NCBI RefSeq assembly: GCF_029945705.1
Contig: NZ_JAQSDC010000056.1
Span: 1 to 64,000, forward strand
Direction: 5' to 3'
From: Methylotenera sp.
GTDB taxonomy: Bacteria; Pseudomonadota; Gammaproteobacteria; Burkholderiales; Methylophilaceae
Length of the DNA stretch: 64,000 nucleotides
Part shown: piece after piece, positions 45,609-56,208 of the stretch
How positions within the stretch are numbered: the stretch's first letter is position 1
Layout of the letters: every line of letters starts with the position of its first letter
Notes under the pieces: generated by a model
The model's input: the letters and a program-made list of their open reading frames with translations, nothing else
Told to the model about the DNA's origin: nothing
Databases searched by the model: none
Position numbers and translations under genes: made by a program

Positions 45609-46367
45609 ATGAATACGCTAAATAAAATAATACGAACTACTTTTGTAGTCATCGGCTTGGTTTCAACTGAATTTGCATTTGCAGGTGCGCCATTTATTAC
45701 GGACGATCCAGAACCTGTTTCAGCAAAAGACTGGGAGGTGAATTACGCCATCAGTAAAACGTGGGTTGAGGGTTCTACCTCAACAGCATTGCCGAGCATT
45801 GATGTTAATTATGGGTATTCTGACCAGATTCAATTGCATGTTCAGTCTCGCTATACCTATCAAGTTGAAGGTGACGACACGCAATCGGACTTTGATAATA
45901 CTGAAATTGGCATTAAATATAGATTTTTGCACCTAAAGGGAAATGACGTTGAATTCATGTTGGGTATTTATCCGATGTTACAGCTGCCAACAGGAGATAG
46001 TAAATTAGGGGTGGCTAGCGGTAAGACTCAGGCATTTCTGCCCATCTGGGGACAACTTAACACTGGCAAATGGACACTATATGGTGGGGCCGGATACCGA
46101 ATTAATCGATATTCATTGGCTACTAACTCTTTGTTTCTTGGCGCAACAGCGCTATATGCACTAAGTGATCACTTTAAGATTGGTGGCGAATTATTTCGTG
46201 AATCAGCAACGACAAAGGCTGACCAGCTCAGTAGCGGTTTTAATCTAGGTGGTATTTACAATATATCAAAGGATTATGGCCTATTATTTTCGGCAGGGCG
46301 CGCATTGAATAGTGTCGCTGAAACCAATAAGCTGTCCGTATTTCTTGCTCTACAAGTGGTTTATTAA
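45609..46367 (+). CDS. Putative outer-membrane beta-barrel protein (transporter/MetA-like family)
   Basis: From ATG 45609 the protein has 252 residues with a signal peptide (cleavage near EFAFA-GAP). Alternating strand patterns follow, with many Tyr/Gly. The start TDDPEPVSAKDWEVNYAI resembles proteins annotated as 'transporter' or phenol-pathway MetA-like OMPs. A longer frame from 45540 would overlap the previous gene and spoil the signal peptide, so I choose 45609. It is 23 bp after the DUF347 gene and 16 bp before the response regulator. Confidence 0.7.
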   Translation: MNTLNKIIRTTFVVIGLVSTEFAFAGAPFITDDPEPVSAKDWEVNYAISKTWVEGSTSTALPSIDVNYGYSDQIQLHVQSRYTYQVEGDDTQSDFDNTEIGIKYRFLHLKGNDVEFMLGIYPMLQLPTGDSKLGVASGKTQAFLPIWGQLNTGKWTLYGGAGYRINRYSLATNSLFLGATALYALSDHFKIGGELFRESATTKADQLSSGFNLGGIYNISKDYGLLFSAGRALNSVAETNKLSVFLALQVVY

Positions 46368-46383
46368 AGCCACACACACACTT

Positions 46384-47049
46384 ATGCGAGTTTTATTGGT
46401 TGAAGATGACATGATGATTGGCGAGGCTCTTCAGGGCGGCTTACGCGATGCTTCTTATGCTGTCGATTGGCTCACAAATGGCAAGGCTGCCCTTGAGGCG
46501 CTTGCTGTTGAGTATTATGACCTTGTGCTTTTGGATTTAGGTTTACCTGGGTTGGATGGGCTGTCAGTGCTTAGCGCATTACGTGCAAAGAATCATCAAG
46601 TACCAGTATTGATTATTACTGCACGCGATGGCACCAATGACCGAATAAGAGGCTTAGACTGCGGAGCAGATGATTATATTAGTAAACCATTTGAGCTATC
46701 AGAATTGTTGGCTAGAATGCGAGCGGTGCTACGTAGAAATAATGGTGGGGCTAATACATTATTGAGTAACGGGTTGTTGACGCTTGATACGGTTACACAC
46801 GAAGTCAGCATGAGTGATCAAGCTGGTTTTCAGCTTTCAAATCGCGAGTATGCTCTTTTAGAAGCATTGATGTTAAGACCAGGGGCCATTCTCTCACGTA
46901 GTGATTTAGAAACTCGAATCTATGGCTGGGGTGAAGAGGTTGAGAGTAATGCTGTTGAGTTCTTAATTCACGCATTACGCAAAAAACTTGGGAGCCATGT
47001 GATAAAAAATCTTAGGGGTGTTGGATGGATGGTTTCAAAAGCAAATTAA
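46384..47049 (+). CDS. OmpR-family response regulator (QseB/PmrA-like)
   Basis: A 221-residue regulator: receiver domain with acidic pocket EDD (7-9), phosphoacceptor Asp51 in LLDLGLPGLDG, Lys of the SKPFE motif, and a C-terminal winged helix ending ESNAVEFLIHALRKKLGSH...RGVGWMV. Start at ATG 46384 because the receiver begins there; the upstream extension overlaps the preceding gene. It overlaps the histidine kinase by 25 bp, so the two form a cognate pair. Confidence 0.93.
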   Translation: MRVLLVEDDMMIGEALQGGLRDASYAVDWLTNGKAALEALAVEYYDLVLLDLGLPGLDGLSVLSALRAKNHQVPVLIITARDGTNDRIRGLDCGADDYISKPFELSELLARMRAVLRRNNGGANTLLSNGLLTLDTVTHEVSMSDQAGFQLSNREYALLEALMLRPGAILSRSDLETRIYGWGEEVESNAVEFLIHALRKKLGSHVIKNLRGVGWMVSKAN

Positions 47050-48380
47050 ACTATTCAATTCAATATCGACTTTCATTTTGGATTGCGATAATCATTATTT
47101 TAATGGCGGTAATATCTGTCATCATCTCGTACTCTAGTGCACTACATGAAGCTAGAGAAATTCAAGATGAAGGCCTTAAACAAATAGGCTTTCTTGTTCA
47201 GAAAAATCAACGCAACATAACGTTGAATAATGAGATGGCAGAACGCACTGAAATCATTATTCAATATATACCCAATAGCCAAACTTCAAATCAAGCACAC
47301 GAATTTGCTTCGCCATCTCAATTAAAGTTACCTAGTAATTTATCAGATGGACTCCAAACTTTATTAATAGATAATATTAAGTATCGAGTTTTAAAGTTAA
47401 CCTTAGTAAATCAACAGCAGGTTGTGATTGGACAGCAAACTATTTTGCGTGATGAGGCTGCGATCAGCGGGGCAGTATCAACGGCATTGCCTATGTTGTT
47501 ACTTCTACCTGTTCTAATTGCAGTTGCATATTTATTAATACGCAATGCTTTCAGGCCAGTGACAGCATTATCAGAAAGTATTGATAGACGCTCTGCCGAA
47601 GATTTGACGTCATTTTCTGAAGAAAATATGCCAAGCGAGGTATTACCATTTATACGTTCAATTAATTTTCTTTTTCACAAAGTCAATCAGTCCGCAGAGT
47701 CACAGCGGCGATTCATTGCCGATGCTGCCCATGAGTTAAGATCTCCATTAACAGCTTTATCATTGCAAGCTGAGCGGCTTGTAAGCGCTGAAATGACGGC
47801 AATTGCAGTGGAACGTTTAGCTACGTTACGGCAAGGCATCACTAGAGCTTCAGTGTTATTAGAGCAACTACTGTCTTTTGCAAAAGCCCAAAGACTCAAC
47901 AATGTAGAAGCAGAAAATTTGTCTGTACATCAAACTCTACTAAAAGTGCTAGCAGACTTAATTCCCCTCGCGGAAGCTAAAAGTTTAAATGTGGGTGTAA
48001 AGTCAGCAATAGACGCGATTGTAAAGATGAATGAAGCAGATTTGATATGCCTCATTAAAAACCTAATAGACAACGCAATACGCTACACCCCTGATGGTGG
48101 GCAAATTGACTTAAGTATAAGTAAAGAGCTGAATGATTTAGTTTTGGAGATTGAAGATAGCGGACATGGCATACCAGAAGCAGAAAGAGCGAGAGTTTTT
48201 GATGCGTTTTATAGAATATTAGGCAATGACTCGCAAGGCTCGGGGCTTGGTCTATCCATTGTAAAAAGCATTTTACTCAGGGCGGGTGGGAGAATTGCGC
48301 TTCTTGATTCTGATAGTTTTGTTTCTGGTTTAAAAGTTAAGATTTACTTACCTCTGCCAGTTGATGCATTGAGTGCTTAA
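47025..48380 (+). CDS. Sensor histidine kinase (QseC/PmrB-like)
   Basis: A 451-residue inner-membrane kinase. Membrane helices lie at about 16-38 and 154-174, flanking a periplasmic part of about 115 residues. HisKA has phosphoacceptor His236 in DAAHELRSPL. The ATPase has the N box IKNLIDNAIRYTPDGG, the G1 box EDSGHGIP and the G2 box GSGLGLSIVKSI. It overlaps the response regulator gene. Position suggests control of the DUF347/OMP genes. Its signal is unknown, although xoxF is the convergent neighbour. Confidence 0.93.
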   Translation: MDGFKSKLNYSIQYRLSFWIAIIIILMAVISVIISYSSALHEAREIQDEGLKQIGFLVQKNQRNITLNNEMAERTEIIIQYIPNSQTSNQAHEFASPSQLKLPSNLSDGLQTLLIDNIKYRVLKLTLVNQQQVVIGQQTILRDEAAISGAVSTALPMLLLLPVLIAVAYLLIRNAFRPVTALSESIDRRSAEDLTSFSEENMPSEVLPFIRSINFLFHKVNQSAESQRRFIADAAHELRSPLTALSLQAERLVSAEMTAIAVERLATLRQGITRASVLLEQLLSFAKAQRLNNVEAENLSVHQTLLKVLADLIPLAEAKSLNVGVKSAIDAIVKMNEADLICLIKNLIDNAIRYTPDGGQIDLSISKELNDLVLEIEDSGHGIPEAERARVFDAFYRILGNDSQGSGLGLSIVKSILLRAGGRIALLDSDSFVSGLKVKIYLPLPVDALSA

Positions 48381-48471: not shown

Positions 48472-50358
48472 TTACAAGCTAAACACATTCATTGCACCGC
48501 CACCCGGCGCTGCATTGTACTTAGTTAACTCTTTGTAACCACCGGCAGCACCTAGGCCGTCGGTTTCATTGGTTAAACCTAGGTTCATTGCAACACCAGC
48601 CCAGCCACCAATACCTGATAGCACGCCAACGTATTGTTTACCTTTGTGACCGTAGGTAATGGTGTTACCAACAACGCCAGAACCTACTTGAAATTTCCAA
48701 AGCTCTTTACCCGTTTTGGCATCAAGCGCTTTAACCCAACGATCTAACGTACCGTAAAACACTAAGTCTGAAGCAGTCACTAAAGCGCCGCCCCAAGCTG
48801 AGAATTTTTCTTTGTTATACCAAGCAGATTTGCCTGTTAAACCATTCCAAGCCATAAAGCCGCCCATTACGCCATCAGGGCCTGCGAACATGGTCAATGT
48901 TGAGCCTACCCATGGTTGACCCGCAACGTATTTAGATTCAACTGGCTCATAAGTCATACATACATGATTAAGCGGCACGTAGAACATTTTTGTCCGTGGC
49001 GAAAATGCTGAAGGTTGTTCATCTTTAACACCTAATGCAGATGGGCAAATGCCTTTAGCATTGTAGTCTTGGTGAGTTGAGTATTTTGGATCTTTAATCG
49101 GCACGCCAGATTTCATGTCGATAGATGTTGCCCAGTTAACGAAAGGGTTCATTTTTTGTGCGACTAACAAAGTACCATTTGTGCGGTCAAAGGTATAACC
49201 AAAGCCGTTACGGTCAAAATGAGAGGCTAATTTTTTGCCATTCGCATCCCACAATACCACCTCATTCATACCATCGTAATCCCACTCATCGTGAGGTGTC
49301 ATTTGGTAACCCCATTTTGCTACGCCTGTGTCTAAGTCACGTGCAAAAATTGTCATAGACCATTTGTTGTCACCAGGACGCACATCAGGGTTCCAAGTGC
49401 CAGGGTTGCCTGTACCGTAGTACATTAAATTAAGCGCTGGATCGTATGAGTACCAGCCCCATGTAGGGCCGCCGCCAGTTTGCCAGCCCTCTTTTCTAGC
49501 TTGTGGTTTTAACCAAGTTCTTACGCCTAGATTCGCTTCTGGATATTGAAGTTTTTCTTTAGGAATAGCTTTGAATGAACCGCCTAGCTTATTACCGCCA
49601 TTCACATCTTCATAAGCTGATAATGCGCTGTAGTGCGGATTTGCTTTATTGAAGTCTTTACCAATCAGCATTTCATCATCTGGACCTGTGCTATATGCAC
49701 GCCAAACCAATGCACCATCTTTAATGTTATATGCTGAGATGTAGCAACGTACCCCAAACTCACCACCTGAACAGCCAGTAATCACTTTGTCTTTGAACAC
49801 ATGTGGAGCATTGGTGTTAGATGAACCTGATTTAGGATCAGTGACTTTAGTATCCCAAATGGCTTTACCAGTTTTGGCATCTAATGCGACTAAAACACCG
49901 TCATTCTGTTGCAAGAAAATTTTGCCATCGCCATAACCTAAGCCTTTGTTGACGTTGTCGCAACACAATACAGCTTGAACGCTTGCATCTTGTTTCGGAA
50001 AGTATGACCAAACAATTTTTTGATTATCGTTTAAATCTAAAGCATATACGTTATTTGGAAATGCCGTGTGCACGTACATGATGTCACCAACAACAAGCGG
50101 CGCGCCTTCGTGACCACGGTTAACGCCAGTTGCGAATGACCATGCAAGTTTTAAATTTTTAACATTACTTTTATTGATTTGTGACAAACGGCTATAACCT
50201 GTATTGCTGTAATCTTTACGTGGTTGAGTCCACTGATTATCATCGTTCATTAGTTTTAATTGCTCGTCATCAGCAAAAGCAGGTGTGCTTATTAAGCCAA
50301 AAAGTCCTGCACTTAACGCTAGGCTGGCACCAAATTTACGTTTAAATTGATGGTTCAT
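48472..50358 (-). CDS. xoxF: Lanthanide-dependent PQQ methanol dehydrogenase XoxF
   Basis: A periplasmic quinoprotein that oxidises methanol; 628 residues with a signal peptide (cleavage near AFA-DDE, about 29). Metal/PQQ residues by alignment to MxaF in memory are E200 (GGEFGVRCY), N318 (GTGNPG), catalytic D360 and the XoxF-specific extra Asp D362 in EWDYDG, plus vicinal Cys132-Cys133 and Arg383 (FDRNGFG). The D-Y-D motif marks XoxF against Ca-type MxaF (D-Y-A). About 34 extra residues lie between E200 and N318 compared with MxaF. No xoxG or xoxJ is nearby. A sigma-54 promoter lies upstream. Confidence 0.95.
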   Translation of the reverse strand: MNHQFKRKFGASLALSAGLFGLISTPAFADDEQLKLMNDDNQWTQPRKDYSNTGYSRLSQINKSNVKNLKLAWSFATGVNRGHEGAPLVVGDIMYVHTAFPNNVYALDLNDNQKIVWSYFPKQDASVQAVLCCDNVNKGLGYGDGKIFLQQNDGVLVALDAKTGKAIWDTKVTDPKSGSSNTNAPHVFKDKVITGCSGGEFGVRCYISAYNIKDGALVWRAYSTGPDDEMLIGKDFNKANPHYSALSAYEDVNGGNKLGGSFKAIPKEKLQYPEANLGVRTWLKPQARKEGWQTGGGPTWGWYSYDPALNLMYYGTGNPGTWNPDVRPGDNKWSMTIFARDLDTGVAKWGYQMTPHDEWDYDGMNEVVLWDANGKKLASHFDRNGFGYTFDRTNGTLLVAQKMNPFVNWATSIDMKSGVPIKDPKYSTHQDYNAKGICPSALGVKDEQPSAFSPRTKMFYVPLNHVCMTYEPVESKYVAGQPWVGSTLTMFAGPDGVMGGFMAWNGLTGKSAWYNKEKFSAWGGALVTASDLVFYGTLDRWVKALDAKTGKELWKFQVGSGVVGNTITYGHKGKQYVGVLSGIGGWAGVAMNLGLTNETDGLGAAGGYKELTKYNAAPGGGAMNVFSL

Positions 50359-50448
50359 ATTTTCCTCAAATATAATATTTTTTAAGTTATGTGTTGCTCA
50401 TGTCGCGCATCTAAAAGTATTTGTAACGACTGTTGCTATGTAGATATT

Positions 50449-50463
50449 GCAATTGATGTGCCA
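50449..50463 (-). promoter_or_regulatory. Sigma-54 (-24/-12) promoter of xoxF
   Basis: Read on the minus strand, TGGCAC-ATCAA-TTGC matches the consensus TGGCAC-N5-TTGC exactly. It faces xoxF, with about 75-80 nt from the expected start to the ATG at 50358. It lies across the intergenic region from the sigma-54 activator gene, which makes functional pairing likely. Confidence 0.75.
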
Positions 50464-50590
50464 ACATCAAAAATGAGCCACATAAAGTGGTTAAGGTTAA
50501 ATAAAATGGTTTAAAATCAATCAACTATTTTTATTGAATGATTATTTGCTTAGATATGATATTCATTAACTTTTTAACACTGTGTCAATA

Positions 50591-50621
50591 TTGAACAATG
50601 TGTTGCGTGACACATGTTCAA
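50591..50621. promoter_or_regulatory. Candidate activator-binding inverted repeat
   Basis: TTGAAC-A-ATGTGT (50591-50603) and ACACAT-GTTCAA (50610-50621) form an imperfect inverted repeat with one bulge and a 6-nt spacer. A second pair TGTGTCA (50581-50587) / TGACACA (50608-50614) overlaps it. It is 130-170 bp upstream of the xoxF promoter, the usual distance for an enhancer-binding protein site. It overlaps the first codon of the activator gene, so autoregulation is also possible. Confidence 0.5.
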
Positions 50622-52584
50622 TAAATTGTTCACCCAAATTGAAAGCTTTACCCAATCAATGAATCATTTTTCGATAGATCGCCCGCAGAGCGTTTCTCAA
50701 GCCAGAAACGATTTCTTAAGTAATGGGAATGTAGAGCAAGGTAGTATTGCTGAGGCCATAGAGCGTTCTTGGCGACGTTGCCTTGCTAACGGCGTCAATG
50801 TTAATTCTCCATCTAATTTAGAAGTGATCACCGCCCAAGAGCTCGCGCTTAAGCGTGAGCAAAATCGCCAGTTGCTTTCACTTGCTTTGCCTGAAATGGA
50901 AACACTGAACGAGCAAATCGCACATATGCGTAACATTGTGATTTTGACTGATGACCAAGGCGTGATTTTAAATAGTTTAGGCAGTCATCATTTACTGAGA
51001 GAAGAGCAGCGTATTGCTTTATCGCCTGGCGCATCATGGCGCGAAGATCATCGTGGCACTAATGCTATCGGCACTGTATTAATTGAGCAATCTGCAATGA
51101 CAGTGCAGGGCGCAGAGCATTTTATGGCTTACCATCATTCGCTTAGTTGTTCAGCCGTGCCTATCTTTGGTGCCAAGAATCAGCTCATTGCAACACTTGA
51201 TGTTTCGAACGACTCAAACACTTCGCAGCAACACACGCTAGCTTTAGTTAAAATGTCTGCTCAAATGATTGAGAACAGGCTTTTTTTAGCCAGCCATCAG
51301 AGCGACGTTATTTTACATTTTCATGCGCGGCCCGAGTTTATTGGCACCTTGTGGGAAGGCGTTGCCATGTTTACAGAAGCTGGAAAACTGGTGGCGACTA
51401 ATCGTAGCGGGCAATTTCAACTCAGTCTAAATTCGCAAAATAACCAGACCGTTGATTTTGAGAATATTTTTGATATTCCTCTTGCAAGCTTACTCAGACA
51501 AATGAATGGTGTAGATAAGTTAATCGTGCCATTAAGACTAAATAACGGCGCGCGTCTCTATGTGAAAGTAGAAGCTTTGCAAAAGCATCAGCCACCTGCG
51601 ATTACGTCACGTGACGCAAAAAGGGCTAGTGCGGCTAATTTAGATTTGTTGAATAGCGGTGACGCTAAGGTTGAGCATGCCATTCAACAAATTAAAAAAG
51701 TGCTGAATCGTGATATTCCAATTTTGATCCAAGGTGAAACTGGTGTTGGTAAAGAACTGTTCGCCCGCGCGATACACGAGGCCAGCCCGCAACACAAAGG
51801 TCCTTGGATAGCGGTCAATTGTGCAGCTTTGCCTGAGGGCTTAATTGAAGCAGAGCTATTTGGTTATGAAGAGGGCGCATTCACAGGTGCAAAGCGCAAA
51901 GGTAGTGCGGGTAAAATAGAACAAGCCGATGGCGGCACTTTATTTTTGGATGAAATCGGTGATATGCCGCTGGCCTTGCAAGCGCGCTTATTGCGCGTAC
52001 TTCAAGAGCGTAAAGTCACGCCTTTAGGCAGTACAAGGTCTATTCCAGTGAGTTTTGCATTGGTGAGCGCCACTAACCAAAAGTTGAAAGAAAAAGTCGA
52101 ATCTGGCGAGTTTAGAAGTGATTTGTATTATCGCTTAAACGGCTTGAGTGTGGCTTTGCCAGCATTGCGTGACCGCACTGATTTACAGGCACTCATTGAT
52201 GTCATTCTTCAAGTTGAACAAACTAGTGGAGTTAATATTTCTCCAGAAGTCATGGATGTTTTTAAAACCCACCCTTGGCCAGGTAATATTCGTCAATTAC
52301 ACAATGTGTTAAGGACGGCTTTAGCACTTGCTGATGGCGTAGAAGTTTCTGAAATGCATCTTACACAAGATTTTATTGATGAATTACAAGGCTTAAATCT
52401 AGGCAATGTGCAAAGACCTAAAATAGCCGCGCCGCAAGTGTTGGCTTTAGAGGGTTTAGCTGAAAATGCTATACGTTCAGCCATGCAGCAACATGTTGGC
52501 AATGTGTCTGCAGTGGCGCGCCAGCTTGGTATTAGCCGTAATACACTATACCGAAAATTGAAACTAATCAGATTGATTCCTTAA
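50614..52584 (+). CDS. Sigma-54-dependent activator, GAF-AAA+-Fis type (AcoR-like)
   Basis: A 656-residue enhancer-binding protein. Its N-terminal GAF-type sensor region (about 60-230) includes LTDDQGVILNSLGS and WREDHRGTNAIGT. The AAA+ domain has Walker A GETGVGKE (374-381), an intact GAFTGA loop (421-426) and Walker B-type GGTLFLDEIGD. The C-terminal Fis-type helix-turn-helix is NVSAVARQLGISRNTLYRKL. AcoR-type relatives respond to small organic molecules. Divergent from xoxF and opposite a sigma-54 promoter, it is the likely xoxF activator. The start could be ATG 50614 or ATG 50659; the first overlaps an inverted repeat. Confidence 0.88.
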   Translation: MFNKLFTQIESFTQSMNHFSIDRPQSVSQARNDFLSNGNVEQGSIAEAIERSWRRCLANGVNVNSPSNLEVITAQELALKREQNRQLLSLALPEMETLNEQIAHMRNIVILTDDQGVILNSLGSHHLLREEQRIALSPGASWREDHRGTNAIGTVLIEQSAMTVQGAEHFMAYHHSLSCSAVPIFGAKNQLIATLDVSNDSNTSQQHTLALVKMSAQMIENRLFLASHQSDVILHFHARPEFIGTLWEGVAMFTEAGKLVATNRSGQFQLSLNSQNNQTVDFENIFDIPLASLLRQMNGVDKLIVPLRLNNGARLYVKVEALQKHQPPAITSRDAKRASAANLDLLNSGDAKVEHAIQQIKKVLNRDIPILIQGETGVGKELFARAIHEASPQHKGPWIAVNCAALPEGLIEAELFGYEEGAFTGAKRKGSAGKIEQADGGTLFLDEIGDMPLALQARLLRVLQERKVTPLGSTRSIPVSFALVSATNQKLKEKVESGEFRSDLYYRLNGLSVALPALRDRTDLQALIDVILQVEQTSGVNISPEVMDVFKTHPWPGNIRQLHNVLRTALALADGVEVSEMHLTQDFIDELQGLNLGNVQRPKIAAPQVLALEGLAENAIRSAMQQHVGNVSAVARQLGISRNTLYRKLKLIRLIP

Positions 52585-52670: not shown

Positions 52671-53015
52671 ATGATTCGTCGTTCATTTCTGACCTTTTTT
52701 TTTGCTGTGCTGCTCGTGTTCGGGCAGCAACAGGCAATGGTGCATGCTTATGTGCATACGGCAGACTTTCAACAACAGTCTTCAAATCAGCAATCCTCTA
52801 CTCAAAAATCTTCAAGTGAAGATAAGTCTACGAATCATTCTGAGGTCTGTGGAAAGTGTTTATCACTTGCAGGCCTTTCCGCTGCCATTGGTTCGCAAGC
52901 GCATATCCTCAATATTGCTTCTGGACAATTTGAGTTATCGACGGTTCTACACCAGTCGGTTATTTCTACACGTTTCTTTTCTTACCACTCTCGCGCCCCA
53001 CCTATCCTCGCTTAG
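52671..53015 (+). CDS. Small CxxC protein, DUF2946-like
   Basis: A 114-residue protein with a signal peptide/short hydrophobic start, a Ser/Gln-rich middle and the pair CGKC (about 60-63), ending in SRAPP as in DUF2946-like proteins. Such genes often precede metal-transport genes, and here it comes before a porin and znuA/znuB. A role in metal handling is inferred from position and the Cys pair only. Confidence 0.65.
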   Translation: MIRRSFLTFFFAVLLVFGQQQAMVHAYVHTADFQQQSSNQQSSTQKSSSEDKSTNHSEVCGKCLSLAGLSAAIGSQAHILNIASGQFELSTVLHQSVISTRFFSYHSRAPPILA

Positions 53016-53081
53016 ACCTTAAATCTTAATCCACACCTTTTAAGGCGTGGTTTTATTCATTTTTGCAACGACGAGGTTCAC

Positions 53082-54440
53082 ATGTTCAACCAGAAAATAT
53101 TGGTGCGCGCCATTGCGCTTACCTTCTTGCTGCCCGCTGCAGCAAAAGCAAACGATAGCAACGAATTAGAAGCACTACGCGCTGAAATTCAACAAATGAA
53201 ACAGAGTTATGAAACACGTATTCAAACCTTAGAGACCCGTTTACAAACGACTGAAACGGTCGCAGGTAATGCGGATAAAAAGGCCGAGGAAGCCTCCGTA
53301 CAAGCCAGTGCTAGACCAACTGCCAGCAATGCGCTTAATCCAGATATTTCTTTAATTTTATCTGGTACTTATGCCAACCGTTCTCAAGATTCCAATTACC
53401 ACATCACAGGCTTTCAAGCGGGTGGTGAAATCGGGCCTGGTACCAAGGGCTTTAATTTAGGCGAGTCTGAGTTAGGGGTTTATGCCAGCGTAGACCCTAA
53501 CTTTTATGGCGGCCTCAATTTAGCATTAGCGCCAGACAACACCATAGGCGTGGAAGAGGCTTTTGTGCAAACAACCACCTTGCCATATGGTGTGACGCTT
53601 AAGGCCGGCCGGTTTTTTTCTAGCATTGGCTATCTCAATGACCAGCATGCCCATACTTGGGATTTTGTAGACAATCCCTTGGCTTATCAGGCTTTCCTTG
53701 GCAATCAGTTTGGTGATGATGGGATACAACTGAAATGGCTGGCACCAACTGATTTATTTCTGGAGTTTGGTGCTGAATATGGCCGCGGACGTATTGCTGA
53801 TACAGAGGGACGAGATGAAAATGGCGGCGGTGCAGGCTCAATATTCGCGCATGTTGGTGGCGACTTAGGCATTAGCAGTAGTTGGCGCGCAGGCTTGTCT
53901 TATCTAGACGTTTCACCTAAAGATAGGAAGTCTAACGATATTGATGCCTTGGGTAGTGATGTAACCAATAGCTTCACTGGTAACAGTAAAGTTTGGTTAG
54001 CCGATTTTGTATGGAAATGGGCGCCAAATGGTAATGCTACTAATACTAGCTTCAAGTTGCAGGGTGAATACTTGCATAGCACTCAGAAAGGTGACCTCAC
54101 ATATGATGTTGATCAAGCGGCTAACACTGGTCGCTACACGGCATCGCAAGATGGCTGGTACTTACAAGGCGTTTATAAATTCTTGCCTTATTGGCGTGCT
54201 GGCTTGCGTTACGACCAATTGAACAGCGGTAGCGTTAACTATGGCGATAATGCCGCAAATCTAGCGAATAGTAGTTATGACCCTAAACGCATCAGCGCCA
54301 TGCTGGACTTTAGTCCAAGCGAATTCTCTCGTATCCGCTTACAGGTATCTAGCGATAAATCTCGCCAAGAAGCGACTGACAATCAAGTGTTCATCCAGTA
54401 CCAAATGAGCTTAGGCGCTCACGGTGCCCACAAATATTAA
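53082..54440 (+). CDS. Outer-membrane porin of a zinc-uptake unit (predicted)
   Basis: A 452-residue protein with a signal peptide (cleavage near AKA-NDS), an N-terminal coiled coil (about 24-75; LEALRAEIQQMKQSYETR) and a long beta-barrel-like remainder. It ends with aromatic/hydrophobic strands and a tail HGAHKY. It precedes znuA by 10 bp. Such porins next to zinc uptake genes are probably zinc-regulated, but the transported solute is not shown. ACGAGG lies upstream of the ATG. Confidence 0.75.
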   Translation: MFNQKILVRAIALTFLLPAAAKANDSNELEALRAEIQQMKQSYETRIQTLETRLQTTETVAGNADKKAEEASVQASARPTASNALNPDISLILSGTYANRSQDSNYHITGFQAGGEIGPGTKGFNLGESELGVYASVDPNFYGGLNLALAPDNTIGVEEAFVQTTTLPYGVTLKAGRFFSSIGYLNDQHAHTWDFVDNPLAYQAFLGNQFGDDGIQLKWLAPTDLFLEFGAEYGRGRIADTEGRDENGGGAGSIFAHVGGDLGISSSWRAGLSYLDVSPKDRKSNDIDALGSDVTNSFTGNSKVWLADFVWKWAPNGNATNTSFKLQGEYLHSTQKGDLTYDVDQAANTGRYTASQDGWYLQGVYKFLPYWRAGLRYDQLNSGSVNYGDNAANLANSSYDPKRISAMLDFSPSEFSRIRLQVSSDKSRQEATDNQVFIQYQMSLGAHGAHKY

Positions 54441-54450
54441 GGAGATTTAG

Positions 54451-55356
54451 ATGAAACATATATTTAAAGCATTATCACTATCTGTATTACTCGTTACAAC
54501 GCAATCCGCTCAAGCCGCACTGAATGTATTTGCCTGTGAGCCAGAGTGGGGCGCGCTTGCGCAAGAGCTAGGTGGCGATAAAGTCACTGTATTTACTGCA
54601 ACCAACGCCTTGCAAGACGTTCATCATATTGAAGCAAAACCCAGCTTAGTTGCGCAGCTGCGTAAAGCTGATTTGTTGGTATGTACAGGCTCCGAGCTGG
54701 AAATTGGTTGGTTGCCAGTGTTGCTGCGCCAAGCTGGTAATACCAATGTGTTAGCGGGTAAAGCTGGTAACTTTGAGGCGGCGCATTATGTGCGTATGTT
54801 AGAAATTCCAAGCCGTTTAGATCGTGCAGATGGTGACGTGCATCCAGGCGGCAACCCGCATATTCAAACCGATCCACGTAATATAGCTAAAGTGGGTGAT
54901 GCGTTATCACAGCGACTTGCAGAAGTCGATGCACCTAACGCTACGTTTTATCAAGCTAAACATAAAGATTTTGCGCAACGCTGGCAAGAGGCAAGCAAGC
55001 GCTGGGAGACTCAAGCAGCGCCACTTAAAGGCATGGCTATTGTCGTACAACACAAAGGTTTCCCCTATTTAGAAGACTGGCTGGGTTTGCGTGAAGTGGC
55101 GACATTAGAGCCAAAACCAGGCGTTGAGCCAACTAGCAGTCATCTTAGTGAGGTGCTTACGCAATTGCAGCGCCAACCTGCAAAAATGGTGATTCGAGCT
55201 GCATACAACAGTGAGCGTCCATCGCAATGGTTATCTGAAAGAGCTAAGATTCCAGCAGTAGCATTGCCATTTACAGTAGGCGGGTCAGATCGTGCAAAAG
55301 ACTTGTTTTCTTTATTTGATGACACTGTGCAACGTCTTTTAGATGCGGCTAAGTAA
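54451..55356 (+). CDS. znuA: Zinc ABC transporter substrate-binding protein (ZnuA-like)
   Basis: A 301-residue periplasmic cluster A-I binding protein with a signal peptide (cleavage near AQA-ALN). Likely metal ligands are His in DVHHIEAKPS, His in GNPHIQTDP and His in VVQHKGFPYLEDW, as in ZnuA/AdcA types. It has no His/Asp-rich loop, so it is a short form. It lies 10 bp after the porin and 75 bp before the permease gene. Zinc is the best guess; another divalent or lanthanide ion cannot be excluded. Confidence 0.82.
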   Translation: MKHIFKALSLSVLLVTTQSAQAALNVFACEPEWGALAQELGGDKVTVFTATNALQDVHHIEAKPSLVAQLRKADLLVCTGSELEIGWLPVLLRQAGNTNVLAGKAGNFEAAHYVRMLEIPSRLDRADGDVHPGGNPHIQTDPRNIAKVGDALSQRLAEVDAPNATFYQAKHKDFAQRWQEASKRWETQAAPLKGMAIVVQHKGFPYLEDWLGLREVATLEPKPGVEPTSSHLSEVLTQLQRQPAKMVIRAAYNSERPSQWLSERAKIPAVALPFTVGGSDRAKDLFSLFDDTVQRLLDAAK

Positions 55357-55431
55357 TGTGCATAGTGATGTGGTTAAGTAAAGCTAAATGACTATTTTGA
55401 TTACCAATAGATATTGATACGGAGTGCACTA

Positions 55432-56208
55432 ATGAATCTTGATACCTTAAATCTTACCATCCTTGGCCCAGCTTTTTTAGCTGGCTTATTAGTATTGGCC
55501 ACACATGTGCCGCTAGGTCAGCAAGTGCTTAAGCGAGGTATCGTGTTTATCGACCTTGCCGTGGCACAAATTGCTGCTCTAGGGGTTATTGCAGCCGATG
55601 CTATGGGCTGGGAGCCGCAAGGTATCAAGGTGCAAATCGTTGCAGTAAGTGCCGCGTTATTGGGCGCATTACTGCTTACTTGGACAGAAAAAAAGTGGCC
55701 AGAAGTACAAGAGGCATTAATCGGTGTATTTTTTGTGTTGGCAGCGAGTGCGGGAATACTGTTATTGGCTAACAACCCACATGGGGGCGAGCACTTAAAA
55801 GACTTACTGGCAGGTCAAATTCTTTGGGTCAGTATGACCCAGTTATTACCAGTTTCAGTCCTTACCTTGCTAATTTTAGCTGTCTGGTTTGGCTTGAAAG
55901 ACAAAATGGGTCGTGCAGGTTTTTATGGCTTATTTGCCCTAGCAGTCACTGCTTCAGTGCAACTGGTTGGCGTCTATTTAGTATTTTCTAGTTTGATTAT
56001 TCCTGCGCTTGCCGTTAGAAATTGGTCAGAACCAAGAAAAATGTTAGGTGCATATTTAATCGGCGCAACTGCTTACGTAATGGGCTTAGCGCTTTCAGCC
56101 ATATTTGATCTGCCTTCTGGGGCGGTCATTGTTTGGTGTTTGGCAGCGGTGGGCGTGTTTGCTAGTATACTTATGGCACAATCTAAAGTCAGTAGTAAGA
56201 CAATATAG
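55432..56208 (+). CDS. znuB: Metal ABC transporter permease (ZnuB-like)
   Basis: A 258-residue membrane protein with about seven to eight helices of the ABC-3 family. It has the cytoplasmic coupling-type segment KRGIVFIDLAVAQIAALGV and the later LVFSSLIIPALAVRNW. Start at ATG 55432, seven bases after GGAG; an upstream TTG at 55414 has no site. No znuC ATPase gene is present between or beside the pair in this window, so an ATPase must come from elsewhere or the pair is atypical. Confidence 0.85.
   Translation: MNLDTLNLTILGPAFLAGLLVLATHVPLGQQVLKRGIVFIDLAVAQIAALGVIAADAMGWEPQGIKVQIVAVSAALLGALLLTWTEKKWPEVQEALIGVFFVLAASAGILLLANNPHGGEHLKDLLAGQILWVSMTQLLPVSVLTLLILAVWFGLKDKMGRAGFYGLFALAVTASVQLVGVYLVFSSLIIPALAVRNWSEPRKMLGAYLIGATAYVMGLALSAIFDLPSGAVIVWCLAAVGVFASILMAQSKVSSKTI

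Follow-up and report, generated by a model that had tools for sequence, protein, structure and literature searches.

A candidate sigma-54 circuit for the XoxF4-2 methanol dehydrogenase gene of Methylophilaceae

The xoxF locus and its divergent gene

The window, that is the whole 64 kb stretch of DNA analyzed here, comes from a genome of 2.93 Mb (G000) and contains a xoxF gene transcribed divergently from a gene for a GAF-AAA+-Fis enhancer-binding protein (Table 1). The region between them harbors a predicted sigma-54 promoter facing xoxF, an A+T-rich block and a putative upstream activating sequence (UAS). On the other side, a response regulator and histidine kinase pair (46312-48380, plus strand) is convergent to the 3′ end of xoxF. 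Downstream of the activator (52671-56208, plus strand) lie genes for a DUF2946 protein, a protein of 452 aa that matches no Pfam family, a ZnuA-type metal-binding protein and an ABC-3 permease; this metal uptake cluster neighbors the gene of a lanthanide enzyme.

Table 1. Features of the xoxF-activator locus, with positions in the window.
Feature	Positions	Strand	Basis
xoxF, PQQ-dependent methanol dehydrogenase, XoxF4-2 type	48472..50358	-	TIGR03075 above cut-off; DYD; clade
Predicted sigma-54 (-24/-12) promoter of xoxF, TGGCACATCAATTGC	50449..50463	-	Pattern match and comparison of upstream regions
A+T-rich block between UAS and promoter, containing TTGATTTTAA	50510..50529	-	Read from alignment
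Putative UAS, three near-palindromic ACA-N2/3-TGT sites	50573..50620	-	Alignment and shuffles
UAS site 3, ACACAGTGT	50577..50585	-	Shuffle-tested pattern
UAS site 2, ACACATTGT	50595..50603	-	Shuffle-tested pattern
UAS site 1, ACATGTGT	50610..50617	-	Shuffle-tested pattern
Inverted repeat of the first-pass annotation, covering UAS sites 1 and 2	50591..50621		Repeat search
GAF-AAA+-Fis enhancer-binding protein (listed ORF from 50614, conserved start ATG 50659)	50659..52584	+	ORF list, Pfam, alignment
GAF sensor domain, residues 101-223 of the 656-aa ORF	50914..51282	+	Pfam GAF; DhaR-like N-terminal region
AAA+ sigma-54 interaction domain with GAFTGA loop, residues 350-513	51661..52152	+	Pfam Sigma54_activat
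Fis-type helix-turn-helix, residues 619-650	52468..52563	+	Pfam HTH_8

The divergent gene had been annotated at first pass as encoding a GAF-AAA+-Fis protein with an intact GAFTGA loop, and both the Pfam domain order and a motif check (GAFTGA, Walker A and FLDEI are present) agree. The listed start of its ORF falls inside the inverted repeat. This start was dropped in favor of the downstream ATG because the 5′ end is not conserved and the relatives L092-L096 carry an in-frame stop within the first stretch of the listed ORF; together with the alignment, this makes the ATG the likely start and the repeat intergenic. The N-terminal region resembles DhaR by sequence (4lrx, phmmer E 5.4e-08). The N-terminal 344 residues, modeled with AlphaFold2 (mean pLDDT 86), have DhaR as their best Foldseek match (E 5.8e-17, rmsd 14.8) with a TM-score of 0.50, a value that supports the fold class only and not a ligand. 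Against the DhaR equivalog NF008485 the protein scores 309 bits, below the curated cut-off of 551, and its sequence places it as a relative of DhaR and not DhaR itself.

The metal site of the window's XoxF reads WDYDG, with DYD at residue 360; the extra aspartate of DYD marks lanthanide use. The same genome contains further xoxF-like genes, three at 73-76% identity and one each at 63% and 35%, and none has the promoter. One quinoprotein (L122, G000:C59:58083-59924), 63% identical over its first part, has WDYDA instead of WDYDG and shares a long branch with two relatives. A tree of 85 XoxF/MxaF-like rows, built without L124 and L099, groups the linked genes, meaning those adjacent to and divergent from such an activator, with two changes needed; the second change comes from four long-branch rows of ~49-51% identity, and one change suffices in only 16% of 200 bootstrap trees. 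On this sequence evidence the linked genes appear to form nearly one clade, matching XoxF4-2. XoxF relatives also occur on nine IMG/VR contigs (L254-L262; identity 72-75% for eight and 56% for the ninth), which could be phage-borne xoxF or cellular contamination and gave no lead on regulation.

The naming of the subtype relies on genomes of familiar strains: G078 is presumably Methylotenera mobilis JLW8, with which its gene order and the small cytochrome beside its linked xoxF fit, and we take G090 to be M. versatilis 301 and G062 to be Methylobacillus flagellatus KT. Two xoxF genes of G078 score above the cut-off, the first in chromosome order being linked and adjoined by a small cytochrome c gene, the second unlinked. 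In the published nomenclature, Mmol_1770 is XoxF4-2, with the small cytochrome Mmol_1769 as neighbor, and Mmol_2048 is XoxF4-1 (PMC6028718, PMC3728764). In gene order and adjoining cytochrome the linked gene of G078 fits Mmol_1770, and it is with this gene, not the one that fits Mmol_2048, that the window's xoxF groups. The linked xoxF of G090 is 98% identical to that of the window, and no small cytochrome was found beside it; m301_1208, reported to be without such a neighbor (PMC3728764), is taken to be this gene.

Promoter and upstream sites across the family

The pattern TGGCAC-N5-TTGC has a single exact match in the window, on the xoxF strand exactly where the first-pass annotation had placed it, and the promoter ends 91 nt from the xoxF start. 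Both the GG at -24 and the GC at -12 are present. At least one exact match also arose in 29 of 100 shuffles of the window, so the lone match is weak evidence, and the question therefore became whether the element tracks the gene pair across the family. Genome-wide there are 33 matches vs. 5 for a reversed control, which suggests a sigma-54 regulon of considerable size; rpoN is present in the source genome (G000:C13:27401-27874) and in 141 of 150 family genomes.

A search of these 150 genomes (E <= 1e-100) found the activator at 55 places in 48 genomes. At 42 places, in 39 genomes and 7 genera, a xoxF gene is adjacent and divergent; at 10 the divergent gene encodes an aldehyde dehydrogenase, at one (L167) an aldehyde dehydrogenase is close by without being adjacent, and the remaining two, identical copies in G062, have neither. 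For the promoter comparison, 11 upstream regions were removed as duplicates, being identical over their last 120 nt, and L124 was left out, being the same gene as L122 and without upstream DNA. TGGCA[C/T]-N5-TTGC is found in all 41 distinct linked upstream regions, vs. a shuffle expectation of 0.125 of 41, although these regions share descent, so that the count overstates their independence and does not represent 41 independent events. None of 45 testable unlinked xoxF/mxaF-like upstream regions has the element. Of these controls, 5 come from the same genome and 15 from 8 genomes with the activator elsewhere; the other 25 belong to 13 genomes of the same genus in which no activator was matched. 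The conservation of the promoter next to xoxF, which the first-pass annotation had proposed to look for in an alignment of the family, is thus borne out for linked genes. The 41 promoters contain 26 different 5-nt spacers, and such freedom of the spacer next to conserved hexamers is typical of a promoter in use. G053, G010 and G071 each have two xoxF genes, each beside its own activator and each with its own promoter.

The activators themselves vary to some extent. Exact GAFTGA is absent from 13 linked activators, all of genus g19, with GAYTGA in the six of them listed. The activator at L099 has a stop in the helix-turn-helix and the promoter is still there; at L174 (G071:C28) the linked activator is in two pieces and the promoter TGGCACAGGCCTTGC beside xoxF is intact, and in G071 a second, whole activator adjoins another xoxF. 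Outside the family, no divergent adjacent xoxF was found among the full-length related activators, several of whose contigs end close by. An order-wide search gave activator matches in 22 of 300 genomes; the loci of 20 matches were viewed, 4 of them from the family itself, and the 16 others (1.5 kb flanks, 7 viewed larger) likewise had no divergent adjacent xoxF. In some out-of-family relatives, a gene for an aldehyde dehydrogenase or for a PQQ dehydrogenase of 27-43% identity is located in the neighborhood, and at the Nevskia locus L054 a 55% xoxF-like gene lies ~4.4 kb from the activator.

The inverted repeat noted earlier upstream of the promoter is real (arms 50589-50597/50615-50623, 9 nt, 100%; arms 50592-50605/50619-50632, 86%), but it is better described as two of three near-palindromic UAS sites. 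Three ACA-N2/3-TGT sites within 45 nt appeared in 4 of 3000 intergenic shuffles. As the presumed activator site, the repeat had been placed 130-170 bp upstream of the promoter; the UAS sites lie ~115-155 bp upstream in the window, and a core ~100-160 bp upstream is conserved across genera in the part of the alignment listed. In the strict form of the pattern, 10 of the 41 linked regions have no site (three of the five type-B and seven type-A regions), 10 have one, 15 have two and six have three within 45 nt; among the 45 unlinked regions, 15 have a single site and the other 30 lack it. Where strict sites are missing, either the UAS has diverged or the strict pattern is too restrictive. A search of its own genome gives one exact match of the UAS core, and the activator therefore looks dedicated to the xoxF promoter. 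With two mismatches allowed there are 8 genome matches vs. 11 for the reversed control; no regulon beyond xoxF is claimed from this core, since the seven two-mismatch matches do no better than the 11 of the control. Similar A+T-rich blocks recur in genera g1 and g19, in many of their linked regions, and an exact IHF-like consensus is found in 10 of the 41 linked regions and is absent from that of the window. The block is possibly a DNA-bending (IHF-like) site, for which this sequence pattern is suggestive only.

Ancestry of the activator

The activator tree comprises 57 rows including 25 xoxF-linked ones, 15 near-duplicates and L161 having been removed by hand. Matches below 480 residues (including the broken L174), L039, L052, L058, L071 and L031-L060 except L054 were left out, and L111 and L169 represent the same place twice. 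The xoxF-linked activators and the G062 copy form one group (100/99), whose sister is L162, an activator beside an aldehyde dehydrogenase (100/99). L162 has the promoter TGGCACACCGCTTGC, with TTGC at -12, and its upstream DNA holds GTAACACCTGTT, like the xoxF-linked upstream sites of genus g17. Aldehyde dehydrogenase genes divergent to these activators have related elements in most cases, as read with looser patterns and without a shuffle control. For the ten family activators divergent to such genes these are GGCA[C/T]-N5-CTGC in eight, with ATGC at L165 and TTGC at L162; for six out-of-family activators in the same arrangement, the exact element is present at L016, L017 and L030, CTGC at L019 and a poorer match at L011, and L025 has no element. 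Activators that are more distantly related adjoin aldehyde dehydrogenases, lie near low-identity PQQ alcohol dehydrogenases, or have neither close by.

Because the sister activator stands beside an aldehyde dehydrogenase, the circuit seems to have been re-aimed at xoxF. The simplest history from these sequences is that an activator of aldehyde oxidation probably came to drive xoxF in Methylophilaceae. AcoR/DhaR-type GAF activators beside aldehyde dehydrogenases share the domain order and the GAF signature W-x-E-...-GTNAIGT of the present protein and, in most cases, a divergent target with a -24/-12-like element. They differ in the target, which here is a lanthanide methanol dehydrogenase with no adjacent aldehyde dehydrogenase. 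The two copies of the xoxF-group activator in G062 (L169 and L275, G062:C1 near 943030 and 1086062) are 143 kb apart in identical DNA (100% over 9969 bases) and adjoin a phosphoesterase-looking gene, with no xoxF beside them.

A proposed circuit and its alternatives

The reading that best accounts for these data, to which we assign a probability of about 0.87, combines the sigma-54 promoter, a divergent activator acting at the UAS, a module of the XoxF4-2 type and an alcohol or aldehyde signal. In this circuit, xoxF would be transcribed by sigma-54 RNA polymerase from the predicted promoter. The activator would bind the three near-palindromic sites as an oligomer and, with its GAF domain occupied by the signal, would contact the polymerase through DNA looping and open the promoter with ATP. 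The promoter-activator pair would be a module specific to XoxF4-2 and inherited with the subtype, derived from circuits in which such an activator drives an aldehyde dehydrogenase, and the signal would most likely come from methanol metabolism, as a small alcohol or aldehyde, and would not be the lanthanide. What is observed is the set of elements, how they are conserved and co-occur with the activator, and how the families are related; binding, activation, looping and signal are what we infer from them. The earlier proposal that a divergent activator places xoxF under sigma-54 control is thereby strongly supported, by the linked vs. unlinked comparison and the unique UAS core, but for one subtype only, XoxF4-2.

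The signal was approached by comparing GAF domains of 41 xoxF-linked, 11 aldehyde-dehydrogenase-linked and 7 other activators, without L270-L274. The near-invariant residues W142, E144, GTNAIGT, H169, C179, P183 and H207 are common to all sets, and the acidic residues conserved in the xoxF set (D113, E144, E158, E168 and E220) are also the commonest residues in the others. The alignment contains no xoxF-specific acidic cluster inside the GAF domain; E94, just before the domain, is conserved in the xoxF-linked set only. A lanthanide-binding site in the GAF domain was considered and is unlikely, no acidic residue being peculiar to the xoxF set. The first-pass suggestion that the GAF domain could respond to lanthanide status is disfavored for a similar reason, as its near-invariant residues are shared with activators beside aldehyde dehydrogenases. 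Without an xoxF-specific acidic cluster, an alcohol or aldehyde is favored over a lanthanide, and because the module derives from aldehyde dehydrogenase circuits, a small alcohol or aldehyde is the most likely signal. Given a real circuit, the odds of this preference are about even.

Direct reading of lanthanide status by the activator, or reading via a partner, would make the circuit the rare-earth switch of the family. XoxF4 enzymes are strictly lanthanide-dependent (PMC6028718), E94 sets the xoxF-linked proteins apart, and DhaR, the closest solved N-terminal relative, was crystallized with DhaK and DhaL, so that indirect sensing is conceivable. This explanation is nevertheless unlikely: besides the shared GAF residues, the unlinked XoxF4-1 gene, whose product also depends on lanthanides, is without the promoter. 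About equally improbable is that most xoxF transcripts start from a sigma-70 promoter, with the sigma-54 element contributing only a minor, condition-specific boost. The A+T-rich intergenic region could hold sigma-70 sites, but m301_1208, taken as the linked xoxF of G090, is very low in every condition tested (PMC3728764).

The working enhancer-binding protein could also be another one, for instance a nitrogen regulator, with the divergent gene unrelated or autoregulatory. The genome encodes seven further proteins with matching AAA+ domains, and in synthetic methane-fed communities including Methylophilus the expression of xoxF followed the nitrogen source (PMC5723320). The promoter and a divergent activator nevertheless occur together in 41 of 41 cases, the promoter is absent in 45 of 45 without an adjoining activator, and the exact UAS core is found nowhere else in the genome, which leaves this explanation very improbable. 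A chance match of the promoter, which the window shuffles taken alone would allow, is refuted by the contrast between linked and unlinked regions and deserves almost no credence.

Published expression of linked genes fits the tight inducible promoter of the proposed circuit. In situ, transcript levels exceeded those in laboratory culture 4-6 fold for mmol_1770 and 100 fold for msip34_0016, and m301_1208 stayed very low throughout (PMC3728764); low in-culture expression is also described for XoxF4-2 (PMC6028718), and the xoxF copies of one genome do not all share an expression pattern (PMC5723320). Several xoxF copies with unlike expression are found in Methylophilaceae (PMC5723320, PMC3728764). 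For one subtype, the promoter with its dedicated activator is a concrete candidate cause, and it was not found at the other xoxF copies examined. In a bolder and still doubtful formulation, to which we give slightly less than an even chance, an on/off switch of the sigma-54 type, taken over from an aldehyde dehydrogenase circuit, would define XoxF4-2 as a whole, with a cytoplasmic GAF domain reading a metabolite of the methanol pathway. If true, one XoxF would be under substrate-gated, lanthanide-independent control and XoxF4-1 would be controlled otherwise.

Taken at the level of sequence, the conserved sigma-54 circuit of one lanthanide methanol dehydrogenase subtype appears real, a known kind of pair with an unusual target; sigma-54 control is not usually associated with these enzymes. 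PQQ alcohol dehydrogenases including XoxF are controlled by two-component rare-earth switches (MxbDM, MxcQE, MxaYB and PedS2/PedR2, PMC11845868), which consist of a kinase and a response regulator, in contrast to the one-protein sensor-activator with a sigma-54 promoter found here. The locus had been put forward at first as one for which no sigma-54 circuit was known to be described in this family. This holds in part: a GAF-modulated sigma 54-specific regulator is already named among methanol dehydrogenase cluster genes, with M. mobilis among the species, in the legend of Figure 1 of PMC11845868, but among the open-licence papers listed none was found that describes the promoter, UAS or circuit. 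The MmoR gene lies close to the sigma-54 promoter of soluble methane monooxygenase, for whose control a requirement for the GroEL-like MmoG is cited (PMC5874634). That system is alike in having a sigma-54 promoter of a C1-oxidation gene, a regulator nearby and a GAF domain in some MmoR proteins; it differs from the xoxF pair in its enzyme and organisms. BmoR is an alcohol-responsive sigma-54 activator of the butane monooxygenase promoter in Thauera butanivorans (PMC8899819). It has another target and a known ligand, and resembles the present system in an inverted-repeat UAS far upstream, at 193 bp vs. ~115-155 bp here, for which looping has been proposed. In laboratory strains, the xoxF promoter-activator pair could itself become a C1 biosensor.
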